This document shows, piece by piece, positions 920 to 63,329 of a stretch of DNA of 64,000 bases (position 1 is its first letter; every line of letters begins with the position of its first letter). The notes under the pieces were generated by a model. It was not told the DNA's origin. It did no database searches and saw only the letters and a list, made by a program, of their open reading frames with translations. Location of the stretch: NCBI RefSeq assembly GCF_002009425.1, contig NZ_CP019936.1:4141297-4205296 (forward strand). The letters run 5' to 3'. The position numbers were made by a program, and so were the translations under genes. Source of the stretch: Thiosocius teredinicola (lineage in GTDB: Bacteria > Pseudomonadota > Gammaproteobacteria > Chromatiales > Chromatiaceae).

Positions 920-1910
920 GCGCACCCAGCCGCCAATTGCTCGCCTGAATCCGCCCCGCCGGTCGGCGCCGTAGATCCTTCAAATCGCAAAACATCCGGT
1001 GGGAGCGCCGCCTGCGCGATGCTGGATCAATGTTGCGATCCCGACCAACGGCTGCACACAACACCCCCAAAACCCGGCTTTTACCTCGTCGAGGCCCGGG
1101 CGGTCGACCGGGATTGTGGGTAATGCCACACCGCGCCCGCCCCGGCAGTGGAAAGGCGTCGGCGGCGGACGAATACTCAAGCCCAGGGAAGTTGCTGTGA
1201 CAAGGATGCTTTGCCGACAAGGACGCCAAGCGAACAGGGACGCCCGACCAACAGGGAGGTTGCACCAACACGGATGTTGCAACAACAAGGATGCCGACCG
1301 GAAAAAGGAGATGTTTGCCAATGGATGCAGTGCGCAGGGAACGCAATTGAAGGATCCATCAGGGCAGGGACGCCCAACTTTTTTCGCAACCGGGATTACG
1401 AAGGACCACCAGGGGCAGTGCAGCGGGACAACAGTTTACAGGGGCATTCGTTGTCCTCACCGCTAGCCCGCCGCCCGGTTGACTCGCTCGACACAATCTA
1501 GAAAACAAGAACAACCGGCCGAAATTCCGGTGCAGCCCGATGAACCACAGGTTCGACTGCTCGCCGCAATGAGGCTCACACGCCAGGGTAGCCGTTCTGC
1601 TGCATTGCGCAGCAGATGCGGTAAGAGATGCTGTTGCCGGGTTTAAACCGCGGCACTCTGTTACTTGACGATGCGATTATCCAGATGTGGAAGGAACTGA
1701 GCTTGCAGATCAAACCTAATGCCCGACACCTCTCCCGGCTCACGGGACTCGATCGGATTTTGCCAGACCGCGTTCAACGCAACTCTGTTGTCTCTGCCTA
1801 TGCGTGACACAACATTTTCAGGGCAGAACCCGCGGCCGATCTACGCGCGCACGCCTCGTCGCAAGGGACACAGCGGTTGGCCAATGAGTGAGTTCATGGA
1901 GGAATTGTCG
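920..1910. other. Long non-coding spacer with minisatellite and hairpin
   Basis: About 990 bp lie between the permease stop and the preferred start of the heme peroxidase. I see no convincing gene: the ORFs here lack ribosome sites and family resemblance. It holds the 17-bp tandem repeat (1184-1336), and a small perfect hairpin at 1597-1615 (7-bp stem CTGCTGC/GCAGCAG, 5-nt loop). Any promoter of the downstream peroxidase should lie in the last 300 bp, but no clear -35/-10 pair can be called. Confidence 0.6.
1184..1336. repeat. 17-bp degenerate tandem repeat (7 units in register plus 2 decayed)
   Basis: Seven consecutive 17-bp units start at 1184, 1201, 1218, 1235, 1252, 1269 and 1286 with no gap. 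The units share the core CARGGAYG and usually end in RA. Examples are caaggatgctttgccga, cagggacgcccgaccaa and cacggatgttgcaacaa. Two weaker units continue at 1303 and 1320, and related GGGACG cores recur to about 1375. A 17-bp period shifts frame at every unit, so this is not a coding repeat. The units diverge too much, and are too short and unspaced, for CRISPR. Confidence 0.8.
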
Positions 1911-3509
1911 ATGAAGCGACTCCGGATTCCCGGATCATTAACGCACGGAGACTTCCCATACGCGTCGCCGGAGAAGACGTTCAATGCCGTGGCATTCGAT
2001 TATCTGTCTCCGGACAGCGCTCAGCGCATTCCGACAAGCGACCCGGCTACCGTCATTACCGCGCTCGACGCCCTCGGTGCTGCGATGGTCGTCGATGAAC
2101 GCAACGACCCGAACAACGGCGATGCCGACTTCTCCCCGATCTACACTTTTTGGGGACAGTTCATCGATCATGACATTACGCTCAACGCCGACCGCAACCC
2201 GGTCGACAGCCCCTTCGATATCACGACCGATGCCTTTGCCCCGGTCGCGCCACAGCAGGTAAGCCAACGCCTGGCGAACTTGCGAAGCCAAGCCCTGAAC
2301 CTGGACAGCGTGTACGCAGGTGGCCCCGGCGGCAACCCGTCGCTGTACTGTCCGGGCGATCCAACGTTTCATTGCTGCAACGTGCGCCCTGGCGCCTTTC
2401 TCACGGGTCTCAACCAAGACGCCGGCGGCGAGACGCCGACCAATGGAGCAAACCCATGCCGTGATCTACCGCGGTCGAACGATGGCTCAGGCCACGCGAT
2501 CATCGGTGATCAACGCAATGACGAGAACCTGATCCTTGCCCAGTTTCACCTGGCAATGCTGCGGTTTCACAACGCAGCGCTCGACAGGCTCGGCGACTTC
2601 GAACGGGCGCGCGAGCAGACCCGGCTGCATCACCAGTGGTTGGTCGTAAACGATTACCTGAAGACCGTCGCCGACCCGCAGATCGTGGACGCCGTCGTCC
2701 ACTCGGGATTGAGTCGCTACAAGTTTGCCGGTGGCTTCATGCCGGTCGAATTCACCGCGGCGGCGTTTCGTTTCGGTCACGCAACCGTCAGGTCAAGCTA
2801 CGACCTCAACGCGCACTTCGGCCGCGGCGGCACTGTTGCCGACCGTGCATCACTTGAACAGGTTCTTGAACTCACCGGCAATGCGCATGCTGCCGGGCAT
2901 GCCGCTCTCGGCGGCAACAGACGCTTGCCCGACACCTGGATTGCCGACTGGTCACGCCTGACCGGTTGTAACCGACGGTTCAACGACGGCGGCCCCGAGC
3001 GCCGCTCGAAAAAGATCGACAGCTACCTTGCCGAACCACTAAGCCATCTGCCGAACGAGCCGTTTGGCGAAGAACCCGGTGCGGCACATCACCTGATGCA
3101 GCACCTCGCGCAACGCAATCTGCGTCGCGGCTTCCTGCTCAGCGTGCCGACCGGGCAGGCAATGGCCGCACTGGCGGACATCGCACCGCTAACCGCTGCG
3201 CAGCTCCTCGATGACACCGGCACAGGCCCGCGGCCTGCACTGAGGGATGCGCTGCTCAAAGACAACGAGCTTCTTCTCGCCCATACGCCCTTGTGGTTCT
3301 ATGTGCTCAGAGAGGCCGAAACCCTGGGAGGAGGCAACCGTCTGGGGCCGATCGGCAGCCACATCGTCGTCGAAACGATCGTCGGCCTGCTGCGCTCGAA
3401 TGATGACTCGTACCTCAACCGCAACTGGTCGCCGTCCGACAGCGAGATACCAGGCGGGCGGGACATTCGTTCGATCGAGGACTTTCTGCAGTTTGCCGGC
3501 GTCGCCTGA
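1911..3509 (+). CDS. Animal-type heme peroxidase (An_peroxidase family)
   Basis: 532-residue member of the peroxidase-cyclooxygenase superfamily (peroxinectin/myeloperoxidase type), predicted to oxidise substrates with H2O2 using heme b. Distal histidine: H87 in FWGQFIDHDI. The GDQRNDEN segment carries the family arginine (R202) and is followed by LAQFHLAMLRFHN. Proximal histidine: H290 in AAFRFGHATVRSSY. The C-terminal part keeps LRRGFLLSVPTGQ and LWFYVLREAE. The start at 1911 is chosen because a GGAGGAA sits about 8 nt upstream; the frame is open further up (ATGs at 1719 and 1884) without such a site. No signal peptide is evident. It is transcribed alone. Bacterial members are usually linked to defence or oxidative chemistry; the substrate is unknown. 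Confidence 0.92.
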   Translation: MKRLRIPGSLTHGDFPYASPEKTFNAVAFDYLSPDSAQRIPTSDPATVITALDALGAAMVVDERNDPNNGDADFSPIYTFWGQFIDHDITLNADRNPVDSPFDITTDAFAPVAPQQVSQRLANLRSQALNLDSVYAGGPGGNPSLYCPGDPTFHCCNVRPGAFLTGLNQDAGGETPTNGANPCRDLPRSNDGSGHAIIGDQRNDENLILAQFHLAMLRFHNAALDRLGDFERAREQTRLHHQWLVVNDYLKTVADPQIVDAVVHSGLSRYKFAGGFMPVEFTAAAFRFGHATVRSSYDLNAHFGRGGTVADRASLEQVLELTGNAHAAGHAALGGNRRLPDTWIADWSRLTGCNRRFNDGGPERRSKKIDSYLAEPLSHLPNEPFGEEPGAAHHLMQHLAQRNLRRGFLLSVPTGQAMAALADIAPLTAAQLLDDTGTGPRPALRDALLKDNELLLAHTPLWFYVLREAETLGGGNRLGPIGSHIVVETIVGLLRSNDDSYLNRNWSPSDSEIPGGRDIRSIEDFLQFAGVA

Positions 3510-5206: not shown

Positions 5207-7003
5207 GTGACTGACAACGAGACAACAAAGGGGAATAAAGAAGCGTCCAATATCACGAGACGCCTTGCCGCCATCGCATTTGCCGATGTGGCCAGCTACT
5301 CGCGCCTGATGTCGATCAACGAGACCGAAACGATGCGCAACTGGAAGACATTGCGCAAATCGATACTCGAGCCCTATGCCGATCATCAGGGCGGCCGTCT
5401 TGTCGAGATGTCCGGCGATGCTTTGCTTTTCGAGTTTCCCAGCGCAGTGAATGCGGTGCGTTGGGCGGTCGATGTTCAACGCGCGACCAAACAGCGAGAA
5501 CAACCGTCGGACCAGTTTACGCTGAGCCTGCGTATCGGCATCAACGTCGACGACGTGATCGACGAAGATGGCTCGCTGCAGGCCGATGGCGTGAACATCG
5601 CATCGCGCATTCATCACGCCGCATCGCCGGGCAGCATTGCCGTGACCTCGATCGTGCGTGATCTGATCATCAACAGGCTGCCGATCACCTTCCGCGACCT
5701 GGGCACCCCGCCGCTCAAGAATATCGCACGCCCAGTGCATGTGTTCGCGGTGGAATGGAAAGAACCGGAACAGCAGATCGCTGCCTATCAACCCTACTTG
5801 CAGTGGTCGACGCGACCGACGATAGCGGTGCTTCCCTTTCGCAGCATCACCGGTGCGGAAGACGATGACTACTTTGGTGAGGGCATTACCGAAGACATCA
5901 TCACCGGCCTGTCACGCAGTCGTTCGTTCTACGTCATCGCCAGAGCATCGACGCTGCGCTACCGGCAGAAACACCGCGATCTTCGCCAGATCGCCAGCGA
6001 ACTGGATGTGCGGTACGTGCTCGATGGCAGCGTGCGCCGACTGGCGGCTGGCCTGCGTATCAATGCTGAGCTGATCGATGTCGTCGCGAATCGATCCGTA
6101 TGGGCCGAACGCTTCGACGGCGACAATGCCGACCTTTTCTCGTTCCAGGACCAGATCGTCGCGCGCATCGTCGGCTCGCTGCAATCACGCGTGCAGGCCG
6201 CCGAGGTCGCCAGGATTCGGGAACGCCCGACCAAAAGCCTCGACGCCTACGACTGCGTATTGATGGCGCTGTCTCAGCTCTACCAGTTCACCGACGAAAG
6301 CTTTGAGAGCTCCGGGCAGTCGCTCGAGCGGGCGATCGCGCTCGACCCCTTCTATGCGCAAGCACATGCGTATGCGGCCTGGCGCCTGAACTTCCAGGTC
6401 GGCGAAGGCCGCTCACGGGATCTGAAGCGCGACAAGGCGCGCGCCATTCAGCTGGCACAACGTGCGATAGAACTCGACCAGGAAGACGCCTTTGCGCTTG
6501 CCGTAGCCGGGCACTTGCAGAGTTTCTTTGGCGGCAATGCCAGGGAGTCGCTGGAGCTGTTCGACCGCGCACTGGCACTCGATGAGAACTCGGCATTCGC
6601 ATGGGGTCTTAGCGCACTGACCAAAGCCTATCTGGGTGAAGCCGATGAGGCACTCGACCGGCTGAGAAACGTCTGGCAGCTAAGCCCATTCGACCCATTG
6701 AATTTCTATTTCTGGATTGTCGCCGGGATTGCCGAATTCGTCGCGGGTCGGTACCCCGAAGCTGTGGTGTGGCTGCACAAATCACAGCGGGCGAACCCAA
6801 GGTTCATTGCCTGCCAACGCATGCTGGCGGCGTCGCTGGCAAAGGCCGGCAAAGAAGATGACGCACGGAGAAAAGCCGAAGAGCTGATGCAAGCCGAACC
6901 ATGGTTTCGAGTCGACGAGTTGCTCGAATGGTATCCGCTTGCGAGAGCCGATGACTTGAAGCGTTTTAAAGACGGGTTGTTGGCTGCCGGATTGCCGCTC
7001 TAA
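5207..7003 (+). CDS. Class III adenylate/guanylate cyclase with TolB-like and TPR regions
   Basis: 598 residues with a GTG start. Residues about 18-185 form a class III nucleotide cyclase domain: metal aspartates D27 (AFADVASYSRLM) and D71 (MSGDALLFEF), and the transition-state Asn in ADGVNIASRIHH. From about 203 (TIAVLPFRSI) comes the TolB-like segment often found in these proteins (YFGEGITEDIITGLSR, YVLDGSVRR), which may dimerise or bind a ligand. Residues about 360-560 are helical TPR-like repeats (ALDPFYAQAHAYAAWRL, ALDENSAFAWGL). No membrane segment is seen, so it is probably a soluble cAMP producer. A Crp-type regulator with an intact cAMP pocket lies 10 kb downstream. Confidence 0.9.
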   Translation: MTDNETTKGNKEASNITRRLAAIAFADVASYSRLMSINETETMRNWKTLRKSILEPYADHQGGRLVEMSGDALLFEFPSAVNAVRWAVDVQRATKQREQPSDQFTLSLRIGINVDDVIDEDGSLQADGVNIASRIHHAASPGSIAVTSIVRDLIINRLPITFRDLGTPPLKNIARPVHVFAVEWKEPEQQIAAYQPYLQWSTRPTIAVLPFRSITGAEDDDYFGEGITEDIITGLSRSRSFYVIARASTLRYRQKHRDLRQIASELDVRYVLDGSVRRLAAGLRINAELIDVVANRSVWAERFDGDNADLFSFQDQIVARIVGSLQSRVQAAEVARIRERPTKSLDAYDCVLMALSQLYQFTDESFESSGQSLERAIALDPFYAQAHAYAAWRLNFQVGEGRSRDLKRDKARAIQLAQRAIELDQEDAFALAVAGHLQSFFGGNARESLELFDRALALDENSAFAWGLSALTKAYLGEADEALDRLRNVWQLSPFDPLNFYFWIVAGIAEFVAGRYPEAVVWLHKSQRANPRFIACQRMLAASLAKAGKEDDARRKAEELMQAEPWFRVDELLEWYPLARADDLKRFKDGLLAAGLPL

Positions 7004-7114
7004 TCACTCGTCACGGACGCATCGAACAAACGATCGCGGGCGGCTGCGTAACACGTCGGACAACGATGGTGCCGCACGCAAAACCAGGGTGAACGAGAAA
7101 GGGGAGATAAGACC

Positions 7115-8449
7115 ATGGCCACAGGAACAGGCGCAGGGGCGGGTGCTGGTGCAGGAGCCGGCGCAGGAGCTGGTGCAGGAGCTGGTGCAGGAGCTGGAGC
7201 TGGAGCCGGAGCGGGTGCTGGTGCCGGAGCGGGTGCTGGTGCCGGAGCGGGTGCTGGTGCCGGAGCGGGTGCTGGCGCCGGAGCGGGGGCTGGCGCCGGT
7301 GCAGGCGCGGGAGCCGGTGCAGGTGCAGGAGCCGGTGCAGGCGCGGGGGCTGGCGCGGGAGCAGGTACATTGAGTCGCGCCTACTATGCGACGCCGGCCG
7401 ACTTGCGCTATCGACCATGGGCGGCGGACGTTACGCCGGACGAGTGCGGCAACCCTCCCTTCCCTCATGACTTCATCGTCAATCCGTATCGCGACCCGAA
7501 CCATCCACTGAAATGGCAGACCGCTGACAGTGATCCGGCGCTGCGTTTCTGGATGCGGCCGTTCGACCCCAACCTCACTGAATGGCTCAAGACGGTCGAT
7601 GCCAACGCGATATCGACGCAGGCGGCATTGGAGTTCGGCAGTCAGTTCCACGACTGGGACAAGTGGGGCAAAGGCGGCAAGAAAGCGCTTCGGCGTTTGA
7701 AGAAATCGGGTTGGCTCGAAGAAATGGATCTATGTTGGGTCGCCCGAAAATCGCAGAAGTCGCGGGACAAAGCTTTCACCGCGATCTGTTCCGAGATCAT
7801 TCAACTACAGCAACTGATGCAGGATGATCGACAACGCTATCTGGCTGAAGCGGAATCACAGGCAGATGGCACAGCGGACTACTTCATCCACTTTCTCGGC
7901 GCAAACAGGGCGCGCCACCCCTGGACCATCGAACTGATCGCGTGTGCCATGTCGATCAGTCACGTGATGCACATGTACTACAAACATCGATTCCTGCGCG
8001 TTCGCCCGTCGTTTTTGTGCCCCGGGCTGGTACCGCCTTTCGGCCCACCGGCTCACCCGGCATTCCCCAGTGGCCACGCCTCTCAGGGACATTTGATCGC
8101 ACTGTTCCTTCTCGAAATCCCGGCACTGGCCAAGCGCTACGGCGTATTCAATCTGGCGACCAAGAAATCACGCCGGAAAAGCTGCGGCAAATACCGCAGC
8201 GAAGGCCGCAAGCCCAAGCCGGAGGACCTGGACGGACGCGGCGAGATCGATTCGCCGCTGTTGTGGCTGGCTCAACGGATTGCCAAGAACCGCGAACGAA
8301 TCGGCGTTCACTACGCGTCCGACTCCAGCGCCGGCAGGCATCTGGCCAGAGGGGTTTGGCGTGACATCGTGCGCAAGCAACGCATCACATGCCCGACACT
8401 TGAAATGGTGATCGAACGGGCGAAAGCCGAGTGGCCGGAACGACGTTAG
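7115..8449 (+). CDS. Vanadium haloperoxidase/PAP2-fold protein with poly-(Gly-Ala) N-terminus
   Basis: 444 residues. The ATG at 7115 follows a good GGGGAG site. Residues 6-84 are an uninterrupted Gly-Ala alternation; a normal globular sequence follows from residue 85. The C-terminal half carries all three motifs of the vanadium haloperoxidase/acid phosphatase fold: K290-x6-R297-P298, S319-G320-H321 (AFPSGHASQ), and R393-xxx-G397-x-H399-xxx-D403 (RERIGVHYASD). It may be a haloperoxidase or a PAP2 phosphatase; the sequence does not decide. No classical signal peptide is present. It is convergent with the metalloprotease-like gene at 8483-11065, with a hairpin in the 33-bp gap. Confidence 0.85.
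   Translation: MATGTGAGAGAGAGAGAGAGAGAGAGAGAGAGAGAGAGAGAGAGAGAGAGAGAGAGAGAGAGAGAGAGAGAGAGAGAGAGAGAGTLSRAYYATPADLRYRPWAADVTPDECGNPPFPHDFIVNPYRDPNHPLKWQTADSDPALRFWMRPFDPNLTEWLKTVDANAISTQAALEFGSQFHDWDKWGKGGKKALRRLKKSGWLEEMDLCWVARKSQKSRDKAFTAICSEIIQLQQLMQDDRQRYLAEAESQADGTADYFIHFLGANRARHPWTIELIACAMSISHVMHMYYKHRFLRVRPSFLCPGLVPPFGPPAHPAFPSGHASQGHLIALFLLEIPALAKRYGVFNLATKKSRRKSCGKYRSEGRKPKPEDLDGRGEIDSPLLWLAQRIAKNRERIGVHYASDSSAGRHLARGVWRDIVRKQRITCPTLEMVIERAKAEWPERR
7130..7366 (+). repeat. In-frame Gly-Ala minisatellite
   Basis: 237 bp of GC-rich repeat encoding about 40 Gly-Ala dipeptides. At DNA level it is built from a 12-bp unit (gcaggagctggt, three copies near 7170) and an 18-bp unit (gccggagcgggtgctggt, about four copies near 7205-7276), plus variants. 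All units are multiples of 6 bp, so copy-number change keeps the reading frame. The repeat also holds other frames open on both strands, producing spurious ORFs. Confidence 0.9.
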
Positions 8450-8461
8450 TCCAATCTCAAG

Positions 8462-8483
8462 GCGCCTCCGACAGTGGAGGCGC
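8462..8483. terminator. Hairpin between convergent genes
   Basis: Perfect 8-bp stem GCGCCTCC/GGAGGCGC with a 6-nt loop, placed between the convergent stops at 8449 (+) and 8483 (-). There is no T-run on either side, so it may be a bidirectional transcript-end hairpin rather than a strong intrinsic terminator. Confidence 0.5.
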
Positions 8484-11065
8484 TAAGGACACTTCCACAG
8501 GGTCAGACTGATATTGTTGTCGTTCGCGACCAACGACGGCAGTGGTACCCGGCCCCGACTGCATGGCAGCTTCGTCTTGGTGTCGATGTTGGCACGGTCC
8601 TCAGGACACGTCGCCTGAGCGAGCACAAGGTAAGTCGCACCCGGCTTTGGTTTCGTCTCCCACGCAAAACGACCGAACACCACCGGCTGTTTGCCGACGC
8701 GCTTCACCGTCGGTTTACCTCTATGCCCTTGCTTGGCTTCGTGCCATTGGTGCTTCCCCTTGGGCGTCCATTTCGGCAGGTGTTTGCCTTTCCATTCGAT
8801 GTAGAAAACCCTGACACTGACATCGTGCGCTTTTTTCGTTCCGCGATTTCCTACCTCGACGTTGATACCTTTGAGCGTGACGCTCACTGCACCTTTCTTC
8901 GGATCCGTCATCCAACGCGGCTGTCGCGATCGCATTGCCGACTTCTTCGGCTTGGTCAATGCGACCGGCACATAGTTACCGGCACCATACTCAACCGCGC
9001 AGTCGCCCCAATCCTCATAGTGCGGACGACTGTCGGCAATGAAAACGTCGACGTTCGGAGGCAAACCGGCGTACGAATCGCAATGCTCCGCATCACCGTA
9101 TAAGCCCTGCGCCTCGAACGCCCAGCGGATCGCTTTATGCGCTATCCCCCCGAGCAACACCTTTCCCGACGTCGACAAGAATCTGGTGGTACCGATGTCG
9201 GCATCAATCAACGCAGAAACCAATTGATCGGGGCTGTTGGCCGGGACTACTCGCGCGTCGCCGAGTAGCCCGAGCGCTTTGATGATCAGGTAAAGCGCGT
9301 ACTCTGATGCCGTTTTCCGGGCATCCATACCACCGGGGTTGGGCGTTGCGCCTCCCAAGCACAGATAGGCGCGAAACAGTGACGTAGACAATATCTGCTC
9401 GGATCGATAGCCTTTGCGGCGCGGCTGTTTCTCGTCCGGCAGTTCGAGGATCGGGCGATGCATAGCACCGCTCCAGCTCCAACCCTGCGTCACGCAGCGG
9501 TCGTGTCGCCTGGGTAGAAACACCCAGGGAAAGGTCGCCCCGCGCCAACGTCGGTTACGTTTTTCGACATCGTCACAGCCTTTCTTGTGCAGGCGTTTTG
9601 CAAGCTTTCCGCGAACCGGCATCCCTGGTACGAAGGCCGACTTCGGGTCGCCGGCAATCGCCGCCAACGCGTCGCCAATGCTGTGCGAGAAACGCATCTC
9701 GAGCTCGCCAGTGGTCGCCACCAAAAGGATATGGCCGATCTCATGCCATACCCATCGCGGGTCGTTGGCGATACTCAGCGGTATTGCCGGCGCCCTACCC
9801 GGATCACAATCGTCCGACCTCCACTTTGCCTCTCGATCGCGACGCGAAAGATCGGCCAGTGCATAGTGAACGTTCAGCCTGGGTGGTGACTGACAAAAAC
9901 TTGGGGCGATCTGATGGCGTTTCCAGTCTCTGGGTTGAACGGCGGCATTCACGGTCTGACCGTCTTTGCCCGGACCATAGGGCATACCGGAGCGATAGTG
10001 CACTGCAAGCGGCAGCTCTGCAGACGCGAAGTAGTGTTCCGGGTGTATGCCGAAATGCAGTAGATGCTCGAACAGCTGGTTGGTGTTGCAATACGCCTTT
10101 ATCTGGGCGGCGGCGTTCGAGCGCACCGATTCGGCCTGCTTGGGCACAGGCTTCAAGATGTACTCGGCAATCGGCTTGATTGCGCCGGACCGCCCACTGC
10201 CGGTGACCGCCTCGATATCGTCGCGCACGAACGGCGAACGCCGCAGGTTCAGGTATTCCAGTTTTTTACCTTTGCACCGCAGCCGCTTACACCGTTCGAT
10301 GGTCGCTGCATGACCGCCATTGGAATCGAGATATTGATTCAACACCTCGCTGGAACGGCTGGGCCGACGCTGTTTGAGCGTGCGCACGACACCATCGCTG
10401 CCTTTCGGCTTCGCCGAAGCCGGGTCTTGCATAGCGAGGATTCCGTTCCCGACAGGGTCATCACAATGCACACCATGGTCTGTCGTGCAGTGGTCGCGAT
10501 GACTGACCGCAGAACCCAGGGTTACCGAACGGCCGGGCATCAGGTAAGCCGACATCGAGGTAACCCGTATCTCCTTGCGGGCTTGGTCTACCTGCGCAAC
10601 AACGCGGATGCCCCGTCGATCGCGGTACTCCACATCATGTTCGGTCGGATCGTCGCCCTTGGCGCCGCAGTAATCGCCGTGATGCAAGGCGGCAAGCAAC
10701 ACCAGGGTGCGCTCGCTGCCCACCGTCTTTCCCTTCGTGTTGTGCAGCGTGCGAAAGAATTCATAGGATGCGCACCATGACGTTCGCTGATCGTCACGAT
10801 CGAGAAATGTCAGCGTTTCGTCGGCGGGCCTTCCGCAGGGCACGAACCTGAACCCGATCTTCGGGATCTTGCCGGCATCGCTCAACGTTCTGAGCCGGAG
10901 AAGATATTGCGAAACGATATCGAAACCGGGGGTTTCAAGCTTGAAACAGCACGGTGTGGAAGGGTGTCGAATCGAGATGGTTGTCGGGCCAACCTTTCCC
11001 GGGTCCGGGCGGATGACAACTGAAACGGCATGATAACGGGGAGTCCAGTCCGGCGCAGCGCCCAT
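8483..11065 (-). CDS. Large HExxH metalloprotease-like protein with CARDB-like C-terminus
   Basis: 860 residues. The start at 11065 has a strong GAGGAGA site 7 nt upstream; the frame is open 25 codons further but without a site. Near the middle is WVWHEIGHILLVA, a zincin HExxH motif, followed about 16 residues later by FSHSIGDALAAIAGDP, which resembles the third-ligand helix of gluzincins though the ligand is not certain. The last 140 residues (VSVTLKGINVEVGNRG, AHDVSVRVFYI, TYLVLAQATCPED) look like a CARDB adhesion/Ig-like domain. Many cysteines are spread over the N-terminal 600 residues, which I do not recognise. No signal peptide is evident. It is convergent with the Gly-Ala haloperoxidase-fold gene. 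Protease activity is inferred from the motif only. Confidence 0.75.
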   Translation of the reverse strand: MGAAPDWTPRYHAVSVVIRPDPGKVGPTTISIRHPSTPCCFKLETPGFDIVSQYLLRLRTLSDAGKIPKIGFRFVPCGRPADETLTFLDRDDQRTSWCASYEFFRTLHNTKGKTVGSERTLVLLAALHHGDYCGAKGDDPTEHDVEYRDRRGIRVVAQVDQARKEIRVTSMSAYLMPGRSVTLGSAVSHRDHCTTDHGVHCDDPVGNGILAMQDPASAKPKGSDGVVRTLKQRRPSRSSEVLNQYLDSNGGHAATIERCKRLRCKGKKLEYLNLRRSPFVRDDIEAVTGSGRSGAIKPIAEYILKPVPKQAESVRSNAAAQIKAYCNTNQLFEHLLHFGIHPEHYFASAELPLAVHYRSGMPYGPGKDGQTVNAAVQPRDWKRHQIAPSFCQSPPRLNVHYALADLSRRDREAKWRSDDCDPGRAPAIPLSIANDPRWVWHEIGHILLVATTGELEMRFSHSIGDALAAIAGDPKSAFVPGMPVRGKLAKRLHKKGCDDVEKRNRRWRGATFPWVFLPRRHDRCVTQGWSWSGAMHRPILELPDEKQPRRKGYRSEQILSTSLFRAYLCLGGATPNPGGMDARKTASEYALYLIIKALGLLGDARVVPANSPDQLVSALIDADIGTTRFLSTSGKVLLGGIAHKAIRWAFEAQGLYGDAEHCDSYAGLPPNVDVFIADSRPHYEDWGDCAVEYGAGNYVPVALTKPKKSAMRSRQPRWMTDPKKGAVSVTLKGINVEVGNRGTKKAHDVSVRVFYIEWKGKHLPKWTPKGKHQWHEAKQGHRGKPTVKRVGKQPVVFGRFAWETKPKPGATYLVLAQATCPEDRANIDTKTKLPCSRGRVPLPSLVANDNNISLTLWKCP

Positions 11066-11193
11066 AGTCACTCTCCTCTTCGATTGAGTTGGCCAGTAGC
11101 GAGCCGGCTCTTCTGAATTATGTGGCCCACCCCGATGCAAACGGCGATCTGCTACATGCCCCGGCGTCGACCACCGCCGTCTCGCTCACGTGC

Positions 11194-12210
11194 TTACAGC
11201 CGCCCTTCATTTACGGCATGGCAGGCTACCATCCGCCGGCCTGCCGATAGCATCTGCGGGCGCTCGCGCCGGCAACGCTCATTGGCGTGCGCACATCGCG
11301 GGTGAAATGCACAACCGCTCGGCGGCGACATCGGGTCCGGCCGCTCACCGATAGACGATTCGCGCGTATGCGATGACGCCTCGAGATTCGGCATCACGTC
11401 TATCAGCAAGCGGGTATATGGGTGCATTGGATTGGCTACCAGTTCATTCGTCTGTGCCATTTCGCACAATCGCCCCAAATACATCACGCCGATGACATCG
11501 GCCATGAAACGCACGACCGCCAGATCGTGGCTGATAAACAGATAGGCCACCCCGGCATCACGCTGGATGTCTTTCATCAGATTCAGGATCTGCGCCTGCA
11601 CCGACACATCGAGGGCCGACGTCGGTTCATCACACACAATGAATCGCGGCTTTGAGGCCAGGGCCCGTGCGATCGCGATACGCTGCCGCTGGCCGCCGGA
11701 GAATTCATGCGGGTAACGCGTCGCATCGCGCGCCGACAATCCCACCTGCTGCAACAGCTGCGCGACAATGGCGTTCCTCGCCGCCCGGCTTTCAGCCAAC
11801 CCGAAGGCACGAATCGGTTCGCCGACGATTTCGCTCACCCGCCACCGGGGGTTGAGACTCGCATAGGGGTCCTGAAACACCATCTGCCAGTTGCGTCTCA
11901 GCCCGGCCCGGGTCGCGGCATCCTGGATCGCATTGATGTCGCTACCATTGAACAACACCTGCCCCGCTGTCGGCCGATCGAGGCCAACCAGTACCCGCGC
12001 CAGGGTCGATTTACCTGAACCCGACTCACCGACAAGGCCCAGGGTTCCGCCTGCTTCGATCGCGAAACTCACGTCGTCCACGGCACGCAGCGACTGGGGG
12101 CCGCCGATCAATCGACTTAACCAGCCGGCGGATACGGCGAAATGCTTGCTGACACCGCGTACGTCGAGCAGAGGGCGTCTGTCCGGCTCGTGCAGCTGCG
12201 ACTCACCCAT
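11194..12210 (-). CDS. Oligopeptide/dipeptide ABC importer, ATP-binding protein (DppF/OppF type)
   Basis: 338 residues, a cytoplasmic ATPase of a peptide-type ABC importer. Walker A GESGSGKST, signature FSGGQRQR, Walker B FIVCDEPTSALD, and the H-loop in FISHDLAVVRFMADV. The C-terminal oligopeptide/dipeptide extension (HPYTRLLI, then [15 protein letters not shown] with its cysteine cluster) is typical of Dpp/Opp ATPases. It is the last gene of the five-gene operon and overlaps the end of the preceding ATPase gene by 8 bp, implying translational coupling. Confidence 0.93.
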   Translation of the reverse strand: MGESQLHEPDRRPLLDVRGVSKHFAVSAGWLSRLIGGPQSLRAVDDVSFAIEAGGTLGLVGESGSGKSTLARVLVGLDRPTAGQVLFNGSDINAIQDAATRAGLRRNWQMVFQDPYASLNPRWRVSEIVGEPIRAFGLAESRAARNAIVAQLLQQVGLSARDATRYPHEFSGGQRQRIAIARALASKPRFIVCDEPTSALDVSVQAQILNLMKDIQRDAGVAYLFISHDLAVVRFMADVIGVMYLGRLCEMAQTNELVANPMHPYTRLLIDVMPNLEASSHTRESSIGERPDPMSPPSGCAFHPRCAHANERCRRERPQMLSAGRRMVACHAVNEGRL

Positions 12211-13180
12211 GGACGGTCCTTTGGTCTACCAACCAGCACGCGACACTGTGCGATGGCTCAATCGATGAGAAAGCGGGATATTCGGACTCGCAACGCTCGC
12301 TACGCCGTGAGCATCGCGGATGAAACGCGCACCCCGTGGGCATCTCGGCGAGTTGCGGCATCACGCCATCGATGTACGCGAGTCGCTCACCGCGACATTC
12401 CATCGTTGGCACCGAACTCAGCAACGCCTGGGTGTAAGGATGCAGGGGCGATCGCATCAAGGTTTGTACATCGCCGGTTTCAACGATCCGCCCGGCATAC
12501 ATGACGGCGACGCGATCGGCCGTTTGTGCGATCACCCCCATGTCGTGGCTGATCAGCACCATGCCCACATCGAACTCGTCGCACAGTCGGCGCAACAGAT
12601 CCAATACCTGAGCCTGGGTGGAGACATCGAGTGCGGTGGTGGGTTCGTCGGCGAGAATCAGCCTCGGCTCGGCACACAACGCCAGGGCGATAACGACACG
12701 CTGTCGCATACCGCCGGAAAACTGGTGAGGATAAAAATCGAAACGCCTCTTCGGCTCCGGTATCCCGACCTCGGCGAGCAATTCGATGGCGCGGCTGCGG
12801 GCCTCTTGCTGACCGACATCCAAGTGGGTCCTGATGGTCTGTACCAACTGGTAACCGACGGTGTACAGCGGATTGAGGCTGGTCATCGGGTCCTGGAATA
12901 CGGTACCTATCTCCTTGCCACGCACGTTGCGAAGCTCGGCGTCTGACAGGTGGTCGATACGCCTTCCGGCGAGATGGATCTCACCTCTGGCCCGCCTGCC
13001 CGGTGGTTCAATCAGGCCGACGATAGCATCGAGCGTCAACGATTTACCCGCACCGCTTTCGCCGACGATGCCGAGAATCTCACCCGCATCCACCGCGAAA
13101 CCGACATTGTCCAGCGCCACCAGTGTTTGCCGGCGCAACGCGAACTCAACCCGCAGACCCTGTACTTCGAGCAAGGCCAC
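12203..13180 (-). CDS. Oligopeptide/dipeptide ABC importer, ATP-binding protein (DppD/OppD type)
   Basis: 325 residues, the second ATPase subunit of the importer. Walker A GESGAGKS, the Q-loop [13 protein letters not shown], signature FSGGMRQRV, Walker [13 protein letters not shown], and switch histidine in [16 protein letters not shown]. It also has the peptide-family C-terminal motif [15 protein letters not shown]. It starts 3 bp after the upstream permease stop and overlaps the downstream ATPase, so the two ATPases are almost certainly made together as a heterodimer. Confidence 0.93.
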
Positions 13181-13183
13181 GAT

Positions 13184-14143
13184 TCAGGATCCACGCAGCT
13201 TCGGATCGAATGCATCGCGCAACCAATCACCCAACACGTTCACCGCCAACACGAGCCCGACCAAGGCCAGCGACGGAAAGAGAACGATCCACCACTCTCC
13301 GGAGAACACGTAGTCGTTGCCGATGCGGATCAAGGTGCCGAGTGACGGTGTCGTCGGCGGCACGCCGACACCGAGAAACGACAGCGTCGCCTCGGCCATG
13401 ATCGCCAATGCGAGCCCGATGGTTGCCAATACCATTACCGGTCCGGCGACATTTGGCAGTATGTGCCTCAGCATGATCGACCGGTGCCCAATGCCGATCA
13501 CCCGCGCAGCCGACACGTAGTCTTTTGTAATCTCCGACATCACCACACCACGCGTCACGCGTGCGTAGCTCGGCCAGTCAGAGATACCGATAGCCAGGAT
13601 CAACACGTAGATCGCAAGCACCTGCTGCTGCTCGAGCGGCAACACTGCACGCGCGACACCGTCGATCAGCAGCGCGGCAAGTATCGATGGAATCGTCAAT
13701 TGGATATCCGCCAGACGCATAACGATCGCGTCGAACCATCCGCCGAAATACCCCGCCAGCAGGCCCAGGCTCACCCCGAGCAGCATGGCAAGCATCACCG
13801 CCGCAAAGCCGACCGTTAGCGAGATTCGGCCGGCATACAGAATGGTCGACAGGATATCGCGCCCTTGCCCGTCGGTGCCCAGCACATACCGCCAGGTCCC
13901 CTGCTCGCCGTGCCACACGGGCGGCGTGAACGCATCGTTGAGGTCCAGTGTCGCAACAGTGAACGGCTCGTGCGGAGCAATCCAGGGTGCCAGTGCAGCA
14001 GCCACGATAAACGTCAAGGTAACCGCAGCTGCCACCATCGCCGTCGGAGACCCGACGAAGCTGTGCCACAAGTCGATGTTCTGCAGCCGCCCCCAGACCA
14101 CACCGGCGACACCCAAGCGGCTTTCCCCTCGTGATTCGTCCAT
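13184..14143 (-). CDS. Oligopeptide/dipeptide ABC importer, permease (DppC/OppC type)
   Basis: 319 residues, inner-membrane permease. The N-terminal helix (AMVAAAVTLTFIVAAALAPW) is followed by the periplasmic loop with HVLGTDGQGRDILS-like sequence (here YVLGTDGQGRDILST), a hallmark of DppC/OppC. The EAA loop region is in EATLSFLGVGVPPTTPSLG. It lies between the DppB-like gene (8-bp gap) and the DppD-like ATPase gene (3-bp gap) and would pair with the DppB-like subunit. Confidence 0.93.
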   Translation of the reverse strand: MDESRGESRLGVAGVVWGRLQNIDLWHSFVGSPTAMVAAAVTLTFIVAAALAPWIAPHEPFTVATLDLNDAFTPPVWHGEQGTWRYVLGTDGQGRDILSTILYAGRISLTVGFAAVMLAMLLGVSLGLLAGYFGGWFDAIVMRLADIQLTIPSILAALLIDGVARAVLPLEQQQVLAIYVLILAIGISDWPSYARVTRGVVMSEITKDYVSAARVIGIGHRSIMLRHILPNVAGPVMVLATIGLALAIMAEATLSFLGVGVPPTTPSLGTLIRIGNDYVFSGEWWIVLFPSLALVGLVLAVNVLGDWLRDAFDPKLRGS

Positions 14144-14151
14144 CTTCGAGC

Positions 14152-15135
14152 CTACCGCTCCGCCACCCTACGAGCACCCCTCAACCGTGGATCAATCGCG
14201 AGGTACAACAGGTCAACGACGAAATTGATACTGATGAACAGCAAGGCCACCAGCAGCAGATAGGCCGCCATGATCGGGATATCCGCGAACCGAACTGCCT
14301 GGATGAACAAGAAGCCCAGCCCGGGCCACTGGAAGACCGTCTCGGTCACGACGGAAAAGGCGATCAAGGTGCCGACGTTCAGCCCAATCACCGTAATGAC
14401 CGGCATCATGGCGTTCTTCAGGGCGTGACCGTAGTGAACCACGTTCGGTGGCAGGCCACGTGCACGTGCGAACTTGATGAAGTCTGAGCAGATCACCTCG
14501 AGCATCGAACTGCGTACGAGCCGCAGGATCAGCGCCATCTGAAACAAGCTCAGCGTCACCGCCGGCAGGATGATCGCCTGCCAACCGGAGACACTCAGCA
14601 ATCCCGTCGACCATCCACCAACATCGGTGACCTCACCGCGGCCAAACGACGGCAGCATACCGAGCGACACCGAAAACACGTAGATCAGAAGAATGCCGAT
14701 GACGAAGGTCGGCAGCGAGACACCAATCAACGACATCGTCATGACGAATCGACTGAACCAGGATTTGCGCCTGATGCCGGTGTGCACGCCGAGCGGTATT
14801 CCGATCACCAGGGCGACGAGAGTGGAAAGGCAAACAAGCTCGACGGTGGCCGGCAGACGTTCGCGAATGAGCGTGCCGACCGGGCGTTGCAAGCGGTACG
14901 AGATGCCGAACTCGCCGTGCAACACGTTGTTCACAAAACGCGCAAATTGCAGCAGCGGCGTATCGTTCAACCCGAGCCGGTCACGCATCGCCTGGCGATC
15001 TGCCAGGCTCGCATCCTGCCCCACCATGTTGTCGACAGGATCGCCGACGAAGTTGAACAACAGAAACGAGACGAAAGCGACAACGAGCAATGCCACCACA
15101 CCCTGCGCCGCCCGTTTGACCAAGAAAGCGACCAT
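14152..15135 (-). CDS. Oligopeptide/dipeptide ABC importer, permease (DppB/OppB type)
   Basis: 327 residues, inner-membrane permease with about six hydrophobic helices. The N-terminal segment VALLVVAFVSFLLFNFVGDP and the DRLGLNDTPLLQFARFV region followed by GEFGISYRLQRPV are typical DppB/OppB features. The EAA-like loop and the C-terminal ETVFQWPGLGFLFIQAV are also family hallmarks. It starts 44 bp after the binding-protein stop and precedes the DppC-like gene. Confidence 0.93.
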   Translation of the reverse strand: MVAFLVKRAAQGVVALLVVAFVSFLLFNFVGDPVDNMVGQDASLADRQAMRDRLGLNDTPLLQFARFVNNVLHGEFGISYRLQRPVGTLIRERLPATVELVCLSTLVALVIGIPLGVHTGIRRKSWFSRFVMTMSLIGVSLPTFVIGILLIYVFSVSLGMLPSFGRGEVTDVGGWSTGLLSVSGWQAIILPAVTLSLFQMALILRLVRSSMLEVICSDFIKFARARGLPPNVVHYGHALKNAMMPVITVIGLNVGTLIAFSVVTETVFQWPGLGFLFIQAVRFADIPIMAAYLLLVALLFISINFVVDLLYLAIDPRLRGARRVAER

Positions 15136-15179
15136 GTCAGCCGCTGAACCGGCCCGCCGGAGTCATCACCCGACGAACA

Positions 15180-16775
15180 TCAATGCGGTTTGATCTCGGC
15201 AAACACGAATCGAACGGCATTATCGGCCGGCACCGGGATATCCAACCAGTCTTTCATTGCCCATACGACCGTCTGGTGATGCAGAGGCAGATAGACGACG
15301 TCGTCTTTCAGGCGTCGCCAGACCTGCGCAATCTGCTCATCGCGCGCCGCAAAGTCGACCTCGACGCCGATCTGATCGATCAGCTTATCGATCTGCGGAT
15401 CATCGAACCCGGTGGCATTCCAGGTGCTCTCACGTGCCAGGTAGGAAAACACATAGTGCGAATCCAGGGTGGGCACGCCCCAACCGAGCAGATAGAAGTC
15501 GGTCTCGCGATTCTTGATCTTGGGAAAGTGCAACGTCTTGGGTTGAGCCGACAAATCGACGTTGATGCCGATCTTGCCGAGCATGCCGGTGACCGCCTGA
15601 CAGATTGCCTCGTCGTTGATGTAACGGTCGTTCGGGCAATCGAGCCGCACGGAGAAGCCGTCGGGATAACCCGCTTCGGCGAGTAGCCACTTCGCAGTTT
15701 CCACGTCATACGAGGCCCGTTGGTCGAGCGCCTCAGTATAGCCGTGCGACACCGGGCCGGTCACGATACCGGCGGGGACCGCGTAGCCACGCATCACCTT
15801 GTCGCGGATCGCTTCGATATCGATCGCTTTGTAAAGCGCCAGGCGAACCCGCTTGTCCTTGAACGGGTTGGCGCCTTTGACGTTGGAGGTCCGCAGTTCG
15901 TCGCTCGCCTGATCCAGGCCGAGGAAGATCGTGCGGTCCTGCGCGGTCTGCACCACCTTGAGCCCAGGGGTGCGCTTGATGCGCTCGATATCCTGCAGCG
16001 GCGGGTCCAACAGCAGGTCGATCTCGCCGGACAGCAGCGCGGCGACACGGGTTGCCTGGTTGGAGATCGGCGTATAGACCAGTTCGTCAACCGCATGCGG
16101 GTGATCCGCGAGCCCCCACCAGGCGGCATTCTTTGCCATCACCGTGCGGATGCCCGGGTCGCGCGTCTGCAGAACAAAAGGCCCGGTTCCCATGGCATGC
16201 CGGACCGCATAGGTCTCCTCGTTGCCACCGAAGTTCTGCGGTTCACTGACGCCGTGCTGCTCGCTCCACGCCTCGGACATCATGAAGATCGTCGTCAGCT
16301 GGTTTGGCAGAATCGGGTTGGGGCCATCGGTAACGATGTGAACCGTGTAGTCATCGACGATCTCAACCTGCTTGATGCTGCCGATCTGCTTGCGGAAATC
16401 CGATGTCTCCGCCAGCGCCCGGGTCAGGCTGAATTTCACATCCTCGGCAGTGAAAGGCGACCCATCCTGCCATTTGACGTCATCGCGCAGCACGAAACGC
16501 CATGTGGTCGGGTCGACCAGCTCCCATGACTTGGCCAACCACGGTATGAGTTTCAGGTCGTTATCCGCGTAAACCAACGAATCGTAGATCTTGCGTATCG
16601 TCGATATCGTCGTGACTTCGTTCGTGGCATGTGGATCCAGTGTGAGGGCGTCGCCCTGACTGGCCCAGCGGATCACGTTTTCAGCGCTGACTACAGCAGG
16701 GACCGAAAACAGCAATGCGAGCACGAATGCCGAAATAGATACGTTTCTGGCCAACATCATTCGACCCCAGTTCAT
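15180..16775 (-). CDS. Peptide ABC transporter substrate-binding protein (SBP_bac_5)
   Basis: 531 residues from the ATG at 16775; the frame is open further upstream but the sequence there is not signal-like. The N-terminal hydrophobic segment ends in VVSA before ENVIRWASQGDALTLDPHA, a good Sec signal peptide and the usual mature start of family 5 binding proteins. Family features include SWELVDPTTWRFVLR and GSPFTAEDVKFSL. It is the first gene of the operon: binding protein, two permeases, two ATPases. The ligand is unknown; these importers take up peptides, nickel, glutathione or opines, and nothing here decides. A weak GGGGG site precedes the ATG. Confidence 0.93.
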   Translation of the reverse strand: MNWGRMMLARNVSISAFVLALLFSVPAVVSAENVIRWASQGDALTLDPHATNEVTTISTIRKIYDSLVYADNDLKLIPWLAKSWELVDPTTWRFVLRDDVKWQDGSPFTAEDVKFSLTRALAETSDFRKQIGSIKQVEIVDDYTVHIVTDGPNPILPNQLTTIFMMSEAWSEQHGVSEPQNFGGNEETYAVRHAMGTGPFVLQTRDPGIRTVMAKNAAWWGLADHPHAVDELVYTPISNQATRVAALLSGEIDLLLDPPLQDIERIKRTPGLKVVQTAQDRTIFLGLDQASDELRTSNVKGANPFKDKRVRLALYKAIDIEAIRDKVMRGYAVPAGIVTGPVSHGYTEALDQRASYDVETAKWLLAEAGYPDGFSVRLDCPNDRYINDEAICQAVTGMLGKIGINVDLSAQPKTLHFPKIKNRETDFYLLGWGVPTLDSHYVFSYLARESTWNATGFDDPQIDKLIDQIGVEVDFAARDEQIAQVWRRLKDDVVYLPLHHQTVVWAMKDWLDIPVPADNAVRFVFAEIKPH

Positions 16776-17529
16776 TGAGCCCCCACTATTGTCTCGATTA
16801 CCCACATTGAGAAGCGCAGCCAACCCTCCGTGAGTGACGGCGTTTACTGCAATCCACCTTGCTCGCACGGCCGAAGTACGCCGTACGACAACCGCATCGA
16901 CGCCCGCACGAGCCGCCAAAGACCGGCACTTCGCGGTCAGCGTCTTCCGGATCGCAAACAACGACGCGAAAAAACACCAACCCACCAACGCTGACTTTGC
17001 GAAATGATGTCAACACGCGTCGGCCACGTAATAACGCACCGGCTCGCGCTCCCTGTCACAACTTTTTGCGCCCCCTGATAGCAGTGCGAGAGCATAAACC
17101 AGTCAGGCGACAATTTTTAGACCCAAGACCCGTTAAAGCGCCCCTTGCAACTCGCCTTGCCGCGTACTCGTCACATCGCGTTGACACAGGCCTATCTCAT
17201 CGCCTTGATTTCCACGCGAAGGCGCGGTCACTCTGCGAACCTGGAGAACGGTTCAGCGTCTCGATCACGAGCGTATTCATAAAACGCCGAGCCACACCCA
17301 TTAGGTCATTTAATAAAATGGCGCCCGGACAGGCCGATGAAGGCCAGATGTCCCTACTTTGGCAAACAAACCTTGTTACGATGGATCACTTATGGGTAAG
17401 GACGCTCACTGGCGACCGGCTCTCCGTTTGGCGAATAGCTGCATTCGGTAACTGCAGCGCAGCCGAACGCCTGCCGGTACCAAGTTTTCGTTTACCAGGT
17501 TTGCGTATCGACGGCGTCCGCGATCTCAT
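16776..17529. other. Divergent intergenic region, no gene seen
   Basis: 754 bp between the divergent ABC importer operon and the Crp-type regulator. ORFs here have no family resemblance or ribosome sites. The region must hold the promoters of both transcripts. I could not identify a convincing promoter pair, a CRP or FNR palindrome, or a riboswitch by eye. Confidence 0.5.
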
Positions 17530-18225
17530 ATGAAAATCAACAGCTCCACGCTCCACTCCATCAGTGTCTTCGAAGGCCTGGAGCGACATCAGCTCGACGA
17601 GATCGCCAGTGAAATGCGGTCTCGCTCGTACACCGCGAAACAGGAAATCCTGGCGCAGAACGATCCCACGTCCGACGTGTTCTTTATCATCAGCGGCACC
17701 GCGCTGGCTGCAGGCTTTTCCAACACCGGCAAAGAGGTGCATTTCGAGGAACTCGGGCCGGGCACGATGTTCGGTGAACTGGCCGCGATCGACGGCGGCA
17801 CGCGCTCAGCGCACGTGATCGCGAAGACCGATACCCAGGTCGCCACACTCAGCGCGGAGAAATTCTGGGAGACGATGCGTCGCTACCCGGTGGTCTCCGC
17901 CAACACCATGAAGCGCCTGTCGCGGCTGATTCGTGACCACTGCGACCGGATCTTCGAGTACCGCACACTGGGTGTGCAGAACCGCATCCACGCCGAACTG
18001 CTTAGGCTCGCCAGAAAACAAGGCGGCACCACCGGCCCCGTAGTGATAACGAATCCGCCGACACATACCGAGATCGCCGATCGCGTCGCCACGCACCGTG
18101 AGGCAGTCAGTCGTGAGCTATCCCGCCTGAAGTCCATCGGTCTGATCGAATGGGACTCCAAGGGCCACATCATCAAGAGCCTCGAAGACCTCGAACGCAT
18201 GGTGCAGGATGTAAAGGGCATGTAA
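17530..18225 (+). CDS. Crp/Fnr-family transcriptional regulator
   Basis: 231 residues. Residues about 10-125 form a cyclic-nucleotide-binding beta-roll with the phosphate-binding cassette FGELAAIDGGTRSAHV. Glu and Arg of the cAMP pocket are both present, so cAMP binding is plausible. A long dimer helix follows (ANTMKRLSRLIRDHCDRIFEY). The C-terminal winged helix has THTEIADRVATHREAVSREL, the Crp-type recognition-helix pattern. No cysteines for an Fe-S cluster are seen, which argues against FNR. It stands alone, upstream of the haloperoxidase homologue, and a class III cyclase is encoded 10 kb away. Confidence 0.9.
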   Translation: MKINSSTLHSISVFEGLERHQLDEIASEMRSRSYTAKQEILAQNDPTSDVFFIISGTALAAGFSNTGKEVHFEELGPGTMFGELAAIDGGTRSAHVIAKTDTQVATLSAEKFWETMRRYPVVSANTMKRLSRLIRDHCDRIFEYRTLGVQNRIHAELLRLARKQGGTTGPVVITNPPTHTEIADRVATHREAVSRELSRLKSIGLIEWDSKGHIIKSLEDLERMVQDVKGM

Positions 18226-18387
18226 TTCGCAGACTGCGACACTCACGCACCGAACCGCCGCCGCTCACGACTTCCCCGCCACCAAAATGCCCCAGCCGTG
18301 TGTTTTCCCACATCGACGCACCGGCTTTGCTGCTGCAATCCACGGCAAAGACAGAAAATATGCCGTATCAGCCGAAGGGGTATGCTC

Positions 18388-20163
18388 ATGCCTGCCAGTC
18401 GCAACAACCGCCGTGACGTGATCTCAGGTAACGTCGGCCTGCGCAATCGCACCAGAATCAACGCACTGGGAAGGACCCCGGAGAATTTCACCGTGTGCCT
18501 GAGCGACGGCCCCTTTGCCGGGGTCGACATCGTCAACAACAAGAACGTGGCGCAACAGCCCAATGGCGACGAGCGACTCAGCCACTTCGGCGGCAGTTTC
18601 TCCAAGGGGCTGGAGCACGCCCCCGACACCGGTCTGGTCGCCACACCTTACGATTACCTCGACCTTGTCGAGATACTGACCGGTATCCGCGCCAATACCG
18701 AGTTCCCCGACCCGGAGGCGCTGTCTTCCATCGACAGCGTGCGACGCGCATTGAGCGTCCCCAAGCAGGACGCACGACGCTACGTCAATCCGCTGGCTGC
18801 AGTCGCCGGCGGCGGAACCGGCGTCGACGCATTCGACGTGAAGCTTCCGCCGGCGCCGCAACTGGCCAGTCGCCAAGCCGGCACCGAACTGGTCGAGCTG
18901 TATTGGATGGCACTGCTGCGCGACACGCCGTTTGCCCAGTGGGACAGCTGTGAGTCGGCAGGTGCCGCGACCGAGGAACTGAACCGCCTCAACGCGCCGG
19001 AGCCGCGGCTCGGCGAAGAGCGTTTTACGCAACACTACGGCGCCGACGGCCAGCTGGCTGCCGACATCACCACCCAGCGCCTGTTTCGCGGCTCGGCTCC
19101 CGGTGACGACGTCGGCCCCTATGTCTCGCAGTTCCTGCTGCAAGACATCCCCTACGGCACCTATACGATCGCGCAAAAACAGCATCGCCTGGCCGACCGC
19201 GCCGACTACCTGGACACCTGGGAGGCATGGCTGACCACGCAGAACGGCCTCGATACCGCGCGCAGCCGTGCTCAACTCGAGGATCGTCAACAGCCGCAGC
19301 GCCACATCGTCACCCTGCGCGACTTGGCGCACTACGTTCACTTCGATGTGTTCCACCAGGCCTTTATGAATGCCGCACTGATCCTGGACGGCATGGCCGC
19401 TCCGCTATCCGACACCAACCCGTACCGCGAATCCTCAACGCAGGAAGGCTTTGGCGTGTTCGGCAAGCCGCATATTTTGAGCGCCATCGCCGAGGTCGGC
19501 GCCCGCGCACTGCGCGTCGCCTGGCACCAGAAATGGCTGGTCCACCGGCGACTCCGCCCCGAGGCCATGGCGGCACGTGCCGAACGCCAACGCACGGGCG
19601 ACGTGGTCGACTTGCTCGATGGCGCGGTGTTCGAATCGACCGCAGCCGAGCGCCTGCTCGCCCGCAACGACAACCTGCTGCTGCCGCAGGCCTATGCGGA
19701 AGGCGCCCCGATGCATCCGTCGTACGCCTCAGGTCACGCCACCGTGGCGGGCGCGTGCGCCACCCTGCTGAAGGCGTTTTTCAAGAACGATTTCGTGCTT
19801 GCAGACGCGAAACAGGCAGTGCTTGCACCGGACGGCTCAACCCGCCTGGAGGATCATGCGCAGGCGTTGACCGTGGAAGGCGAGATCAACAAGCTGGCGG
19901 CCAACATTGCGATCGGGCGCATGGCCGCAGGTGTCAACTACCGCTCGGACTACGCCAAATCGCTCGCTCTCGGCGAAGCGGTCGCCATCGCGATGCTGCA
20001 GGAACAGGCCATGGAACTGAAGGAAGGGACGAGTTGCGACGCAATCGCCTTTGAATTCAACAACTTCTCGGGCCGCAAGGTGCAGATAACCTACGCCGGG
20101 CAAGCGCTCTGCAACCAGTCGGGCTACCAGGCGCCACAGACCTTCCGCTGCGTATCGGCCTGA
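18388..20163 (+). CDS. Vanadium haloperoxidase homologue (algal bromoperoxidase type) lacking the vanadate-binding His
   Basis: 591 residues from ATG 18388 (AAGGGG 8 nt upstream; the ATG at 18382 is too close to that site). It follows the algal/cyanobacterial bromoperoxidase pattern: K382-x7-R390-P391 (KWLVHRRLRP, the K398/R406 spacing of the Corallina enzyme) and S448-G449-H450 (MHPSYASGHATV). Motif 3 is IGRMAAGVNYRSD: R511 is present, but position 517, exactly 6 residues on, is Asn where the family has the His that binds vanadate directly. Activity as a haloperoxidase or phosphatase is therefore doubtful. No signal peptide is obvious. The surrounding sequence is otherwise well conserved, including LGEAVAIAML after the motif. 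Confidence 0.88.
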   Translation: MPASRNNRRDVISGNVGLRNRTRINALGRTPENFTVCLSDGPFAGVDIVNNKNVAQQPNGDERLSHFGGSFSKGLEHAPDTGLVATPYDYLDLVEILTGIRANTEFPDPEALSSIDSVRRALSVPKQDARRYVNPLAAVAGGGTGVDAFDVKLPPAPQLASRQAGTELVELYWMALLRDTPFAQWDSCESAGAATEELNRLNAPEPRLGEERFTQHYGADGQLAADITTQRLFRGSAPGDDVGPYVSQFLLQDIPYGTYTIAQKQHRLADRADYLDTWEAWLTTQNGLDTARSRAQLEDRQQPQRHIVTLRDLAHYVHFDVFHQAFMNAALILDGMAAPLSDTNPYRESSTQEGFGVFGKPHILSAIAEVGARALRVAWHQKWLVHRRLRPEAMAARAERQRTGDVVDLLDGAVFESTAAERLLARNDNLLLPQAYAEGAPMHPSYASGHATVAGACATLLKAFFKNDFVLADAKQAVLAPDGSTRLEDHAQALTVEGEINKLAANIAIGRMAAGVNYRSDYAKSLALGEAVAIAMLQEQAMELKEGTSCDAIAFEFNNFSGRKVQITYAGQALCNQSGYQAPQTFRCVSA

Positions 20164-62963: not shown

Positions 62964-62974
62964 GGGTGTGCAGC

Positions 62975-63318: not shown

Positions 63319-63329
63319 GGGTGTGCAGC

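Follow-up and report, generated by a model that had tools for sequence, protein, structure and literature searches.

Why should a bacterial enzyme with an intact active site begin with a long and perfectly pure Gly-Ala repeat? The question arises from an open reading frame (7115–8449, plus strand; 444 residues) in a 64,000-nucleotide stretch of the Thiosocius teredinicola genome, here called the window. The encoded protein begins MATGT(GA)39G-TLSRAYYATP, and the tract reported in the first-pass annotation is exact: residues 6–84 (nucleotides 7130–7366, plus strand) comprise 79 Gly and Ala residues in a row without interruption. The underlying DNA repeat is imperfect, with periods of 12, 18 and 36 bp and 75–83% matches (Tandem Repeats Finder), and all eight Gly and Ala codons are used. 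Between adjacent units there are 67 codon differences at the third position and none at the first or second; without selection, about two thirds of differences would be expected at positions 1 and 2. The chance of finding 67 of 67 at position 3 is ~1e-32, a figure that treats the differences as independent and that repeated duplication makes only approximate. This pattern shows that the amino-acid sequence has been kept by selection and that the tract is no artefact.

Two explanations that had been raised at the outset are both unlikely. An assembly artefact is disfavored because the repeat lies on a complete contig and uses varied codons, and because the same GA head occurs at the same position in four genomes from other genera (loci L072, L073, L082 and L090). 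Within the 4.79-Mb single-contig genome, it is the only coding tract of its kind, the sole other match being antisense to an OmpA-like gene, where the coding strand specifies a Pro-Ala linker. A translation start after the repeat is disfavored because a strong ribosome-binding site, the Shine-Dalgarno-like GGGGAG (7101–7106, plus strand), lies 8 nt 5′ of the ATG at 7115, and because across the family such a motif precedes the start ahead of the head in 78 of 92 members (control stretch, 17 of 92); the candidate later start, a TTG, lies near residue 86. The repeat is thus translated, as first proposed. The head is predicted to be disordered, residues 1–90 having a pLDDT of about 30–39 in the AF2 model.

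The enzyme that follows the head is a member of the PAP2 superfamily. Its active-site motifs, K-x6-RP (residues 290–298), PSGH (318–321) and R-x5-H-x3-D (393–403), are encoded at 7982–8323 (plus strand) and are intact, in agreement with the initial reading; K290, R297, P298, P318, S319, H321, R393, H399 and D403 are invariant among 49 homologues (alignment A3), and G320 is kept in 90% or more of them. PF01569 (PAP2) is matched in all 49 aligned family members, although the window protein alone reaches 17.3 bits, below the cut-off of 27.2. In the AF2 model the core has pLDDT values mostly above 90. The same reading had labelled it a haloperoxidase/PAP2-fold enzyme; the haloperoxidase label is not favored over phosphatase: by sequence profile the best PDB match is to class A acid phosphatases (E 1e-19), and the top 23 Foldseek matches to the predicted structure are all acid phosphatases (TM about 0.70 on the target), whereas vanadium haloperoxidase structures give weaker profile matches and Foldseek TM values of about 0.11–0.33 on the target, and their overall fold and size do not fit. 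Both comparisons thus bring the core nearer to the class A enzymes than to haloperoxidases. The gene was not found in the eight genus-mates and 26 other members of the family searched, which makes it accessory in T. teredinicola. Further along the window, a Crp-type regulator and then a second PAP2-superfamily protein (621 residues), a distant match to the core profile, are encoded at 17530–20163 (plus strand).

A single-sequence search of genome contigs and plasmids with the window protein gave no match, and a four-row core alignment was required. A class-wide search returned weak homologues, three of which carried differing simple repeats near the N-terminus, (SM)n, (SGGA)n and (RN)n; aligned with the window protein (alignment A2), these drew 80 loci from named genomes. 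A phylum sample supplied further loci (L152 onward), collected after the pattern had been seen in the first set, and a search of viral contigs yielded no homologues. Nearly all Pseudomonadota homologues that lie in the gene module described below bear a short-period N-terminal repeat, beginning within a median of six residues of the initiator Met, but the sequences differ, with GA replaced by about 40 other units. Period-2 heads include GA, GL, GM, GV, GQ, GT, SM, RS, KN and MT. Also seen are DSS, DSA, GTD, GMD, GAD, ATD, ARD, GTS, GNS, GNA, GNT, GDM, NEG, TSN, GSS, GMH, GGF, GGA, GVT, GVA, GAS, GNQ, GRA, AEN, FNS, AMT, QQT and GGW, together with SGGA, GGLN, GGMN, GGMD, DGGV, DGAS, HGNS, GGGN, GGQS and GGNWF. 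Their chemistry ranges from charged (KN, RS, AEN) through polar (GNQ) to hydrophobic (GL, GF). Repeats of this kind had been thought rare in bacterial enzymes; in this PAP2 family they are not, and Gly-Ala is one of many. In three loci (L110, L111 and L136), some 300–400 extra residues lie between an NEG head and the PAP2 core.

The heads belong to a conserved trio of genes, in which the two partners of the PAP2 gene, above all the adjacent peptidase, had been overlooked by the first-pass annotation. Neighbor clustering and profile searches recovered 84 complete triples of a TPR-containing regulator, a headed PAP2 enzyme and a peptidase, and the trio was again present in the loci from L152 onward. 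In the window, the regulator (5207–7003, plus strand; class III cyclase-homology, TolB_N/FlgO-like and TPR regions, the Pfam matches to the first two falling just under the cut-offs) ends 111 bp upstream of the PAP2 gene. Of 83 loci scored, 80 have a regulator homologue immediately 5′ of the PAP2 gene and in the same orientation, with a median gap of 44.5 bp; at the N-terminus of the regulator, some clades have a class III cyclase-homology domain, whereas others have BTAD or a winged helix. An animal-haem-peroxidase-type protein is encoded near the window module (1719–3509, plus strand), and a homologue lies near the module of L130 (1758–3296), so that this neighborhood may be recurrent. At the far end of the window, 62748–63458 holds a perfect (100%) 355-bp tandem duplication in two copies, which either arose very recently or reflects the assembly.

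On the other side of the PAP2 gene, and convergent with it, lies a gene for an 885-residue protein (8483–11140, minus strand) with a HEIGH motif. H466, E467 and H470 are invariant across 20 homologues, and homologues share a locus with dipeptide-headed PAP2 genes in 24 cases. The protein has no Pfam, NCBIfam or PDB match, and its AF2 model, of medium confidence, gave no PDB match in Foldseek. It is likely to represent an undescribed metallopeptidase family, its putative peptidase role being read from the HExxH motif only. At least four peptidase types occur in the module: these large HExxH metallopeptidases, papain-like C1, Peptidase_A4 and S8. A second metallopeptidase type is probable in L132 (2948–4720) and L183 (2866–5052), where the genes with (RS)n and (SM)n heads are followed by genes for homologous HExxHxxGxxH proteins with no Pfam match.

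Where enough sequence is available, a peptidase almost always shares the locus; it accompanies the PAP2 gene in 96 loci, and in 94 of these the enzyme is headed. The peptidase gene lies directly 3′ in most groups and is convergent in the window and in most metallopeptidase loci; in one S8 clade it lies past the regulator and is divergent. In L114, head, PAP2 core and papain-like peptidase form a single open reading frame. In L085 and L089 the metallopeptidase gene has been transferred to the opposite flank of the regulator, still within the module, and L079 is a decayed or low-quality copy, with both partner genes split and the head out of frame (GMGMGN to RHGQ).

The head goes together with these partners. 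Of 101 PAP2 genes accompanied by one partner or more, 96 have a head, as do none of the 17 that stand without a partner; of the five headless exceptions, L119 is truncated by the end of its contig, L142 comes from a contig of 3 kb, and the regulator matches of L125, L129 and L138 are only weak. Comparable repeats are absent from the regulator and peptidase proteins of the same loci (0 of 180). The Gly-Ala tract is the form that a conserved component of this three-gene module takes in the window. Neutral replication slippage, or an artefact, could account for strains differing by whole repeat units, but it is strongly contradicted already, by protein sequences that stay pure despite diverse codons and by a head that is family-wide, missing from partnerless homologues and without parallel in the partner proteins.

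What, then, is being conserved? A tree built from the head-free core requires four changes of peptidase class, five of repeat period and 64 of repeat motif, the last being an upper-side figure for distinct chemistry in that it includes compound variants such as GLGLGN. Sister pairs show true turnover of letters (SGGA/GGW in L033/L151, GFG/FNS in L164/L167), and three genomes hold two modules with differing heads (GLGLGN and FNS; GFG and AEN; GNQ and AMT). Peptidase class and repeat period (2, 3 or 4) are, by contrast, stable within clades. Length also varies between close homologues, and Phaeobacter strains with a relative carry NSF in four, five or six copies, in steps of whole 9-bp units, which bears out the expectation of frame-neutral length change. 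Selection at the protein level is seen here too: heads built only of fourfold-degenerate codons have 448 third-position differences against two at the first and second positions, and the serine codons of DSS heads vary even at their first and second positions, the residue always being kept. The head is thus selected at the protein level, with a stable period and letters that turn over.

This combination makes functions derived from Gly-Ala chemistry, as first suggested (self-assembly, display or protease resistance), wrong or too narrow, the period being kept while the chemistry drifts. A broader form of self-assembly deserves more weight, although we consider it rather improbable. A sticky or fiber-forming periodic head would cluster the enzyme, dipeptide heads as silk-like strands and tripeptide heads as polyglycine-II-like rods, with the peptidase only trimming or disassembling the product. 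That the period is kept while letters change (about five against 64 changes) is as expected if geometry matters, and Gly alternates with another residue in many heads. However, charged heads (KN, RS, RN, AEN, ARD) and heads of only about 9–20 residues (L095, L103, L034) are poor fiber formers, the head is disordered in the AF2 prediction (albeit a model of the monomer only), and the ever-present peptidase gene in the locus is left unexplained.

The peptidase is the partner to which the period is linked. Period 2 goes with the large metallopeptidase, period 4 with papain-like peptidases, and period 3 with A4 and with the two main S8 groups, a match that rests on only about six or seven independent events, since both features follow deep clades. 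Once common descent is allowed for, the composition of the head is not correlated with peptidase sequence inside any class (partial Mantel r between −0.15 and 0.15, p no lower than 0.07), so that no cleavage site tuned by coevolution is seen within peptidase classes. A correlation between head and regulator among the metallopeptidase loci (r = 0.34, p < 0.001) is given no weight, since the other classes fail to repeat it.

The link between head and peptidase, together with a tolerance of changes in letters but not in periodicity, suggests a pro-segment or tether on which the peptidase acts. Tentatively, and as something less than a probable account, we propose that the head is a disordered, repetitive pro-segment or docking tether, processed or docked on by the partner peptidase, that gates a cytoplasmic PAP2 enzyme. 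The peptidase would bind and clip it, either one repeat unit at a time or at numerous like positions, and upon clipping or release a phosphatase-like enzyme, otherwise quiet in the cytoplasm, would be activated, set free or moved elsewhere; the regulator would control this peptidase–PAP2 switch. Repeats would offer many equivalent sites, allowing length and letters to drift while function is kept. Prolysostaphin and the protease-gated pro-nucleases, both taken up below, set a precedent for parts of this scheme. Counted against processing are the variable gene order, the few events behind the match of class and period, and the lack of covariation within classes. The last would fit a peptidase that senses step or accessibility rather than residues, or else a structural role.

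A stricter form of this proposal is very unlikely. The peptidase would remove fixed units of two, three or four residues from the N-terminus, making the head a molecular fuse in which the number of units sets the delay before release. With identical units, each cut would restore the same end, and letters would be free as long as the period equalled the step of the peptidase. If true, this would explain at once the conserved period, the free composition and the absence of finer coevolution within classes. A slightly more doubtful reading makes the head itself the product, chopped by the peptidase into many copies of a signal of two to four residues. Identical tandem units next to a peptidase would suit such a precursor, and an Opp-type oligopeptide ABC transporter (11194–16988) adjoins the window module; the transporter is, however, not a recurrent neighbor in other loci, and GA and GGA units, as ordinary breakdown products, would make poor signals.

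The head could instead be protective, slippery to ATP-dependent unfoldases or resistant to the module peptidase, and so shield the enzyme. Low-complexity tracts, including Gly-Ala, are reported to frustrate AAA+ proteases depending on context, which speaks for such a shield, yet GA repeats do not promote ClpX release (PMC9531181). A shield would tolerate changes in letters, but it gives no reason for a clade-specific period and does not require exact repeats; we regard it as unlikely.

The cellular location of the module bears on a further explanation. As judged by hydropathy only, the headed PAP2 enzymes, the peptidases and nearly all regulators are without a hydrophobic N-terminus, which is present in 13 of 17 headless relatives; the head occupies the place of the signal peptide in secreted relatives. 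The module therefore looks cytoplasmic, a placing that would be unusual for acid phosphatases and equally for S8, papain-like and A4 peptidases, which are usually secreted. The replacement of a signal peptide by the head, and the usual secretion of these peptidase types, could be taken to mean that the head is a tag for export or display by a non-Sec route. With no export signals in the module proteins (nearly all, for the regulators), a regulator of cytoplasmic type and no recurrent secretion gene in the module neighborhoods, this too seems an unlikely explanation.

The distribution of the module offers a hint of what it may serve. On Phaeobacter plasmids, 11 of 21 of those with the trio are predicted to be conjugative, which points to a mobile accessory function; RefSeq names the three products there 'winged helix-turn-helix', 'phosphatase PAP2 family' and 'S8 family serine peptidase'. 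A known anti-phage defense system was considered and set aside, as PADLOC models matched none of eight module proteins. Neither a repeat-headed PAP2 or haloperoxidase protein nor the gene trio was found described in the open-licence literature, to which the search was confined and which gives weak evidence of absence. Simple repeats are usually dismissed as low-complexity filler. Here, a part of a protein is conserved for its repetitiveness and period rather than its residues, and is inherited with an interchangeable peptidase, an architecture we did not find described. The natural variants, in which the same enzyme comes with another repeat and another peptidase, make the function of a simple repeat directly testable.

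Among known systems, the PhoN/PhoC-type class A acid phosphatases of the PAP2 superfamily share the core fold and the motifs K-x6-RP, PSGH and R-x5-H-x3-D; they are secreted with a signal peptide, which the module PAP2 appears to lack (hydropathy only), and they have neither the repeat head nor the extra N-terminal helical region nor the regulator–peptidase module. Vanadium-dependent haloperoxidases have the superfamily active site in common, but the module core is shorter and less similar, and the motif is one shared with phosphatases. Silk fibroin and EBNA1 resemble the window head in their Gly-Ala dipeptide repetition, without homology; a silk-like structural protein was rejected because Gly-Ala chemistry is not conserved among homologues and is interchangeable with other repeats. 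Also comparable are protease-gated immunity effectors (pro-nuclease/protease and caspase–nuclease loci), in which an enzyme gene lies next to a protease of varying family and pro-nucleases are gated by partner proteases in bacterial immunity (PMC12799240); the module differs in its PAP2-type effector, in a supposed pro-segment made of a short-period repeat and in having no PADLOC match. Prolysostaphin, although secreted, built of 13-residue units, unrelated as an enzyme and not part of such a module, likewise carries an N-terminal tandem-repeat segment, and there a separate cysteine protease cuts off the 15-repeat propeptide with about 4.5-fold activation (PMC3492699).
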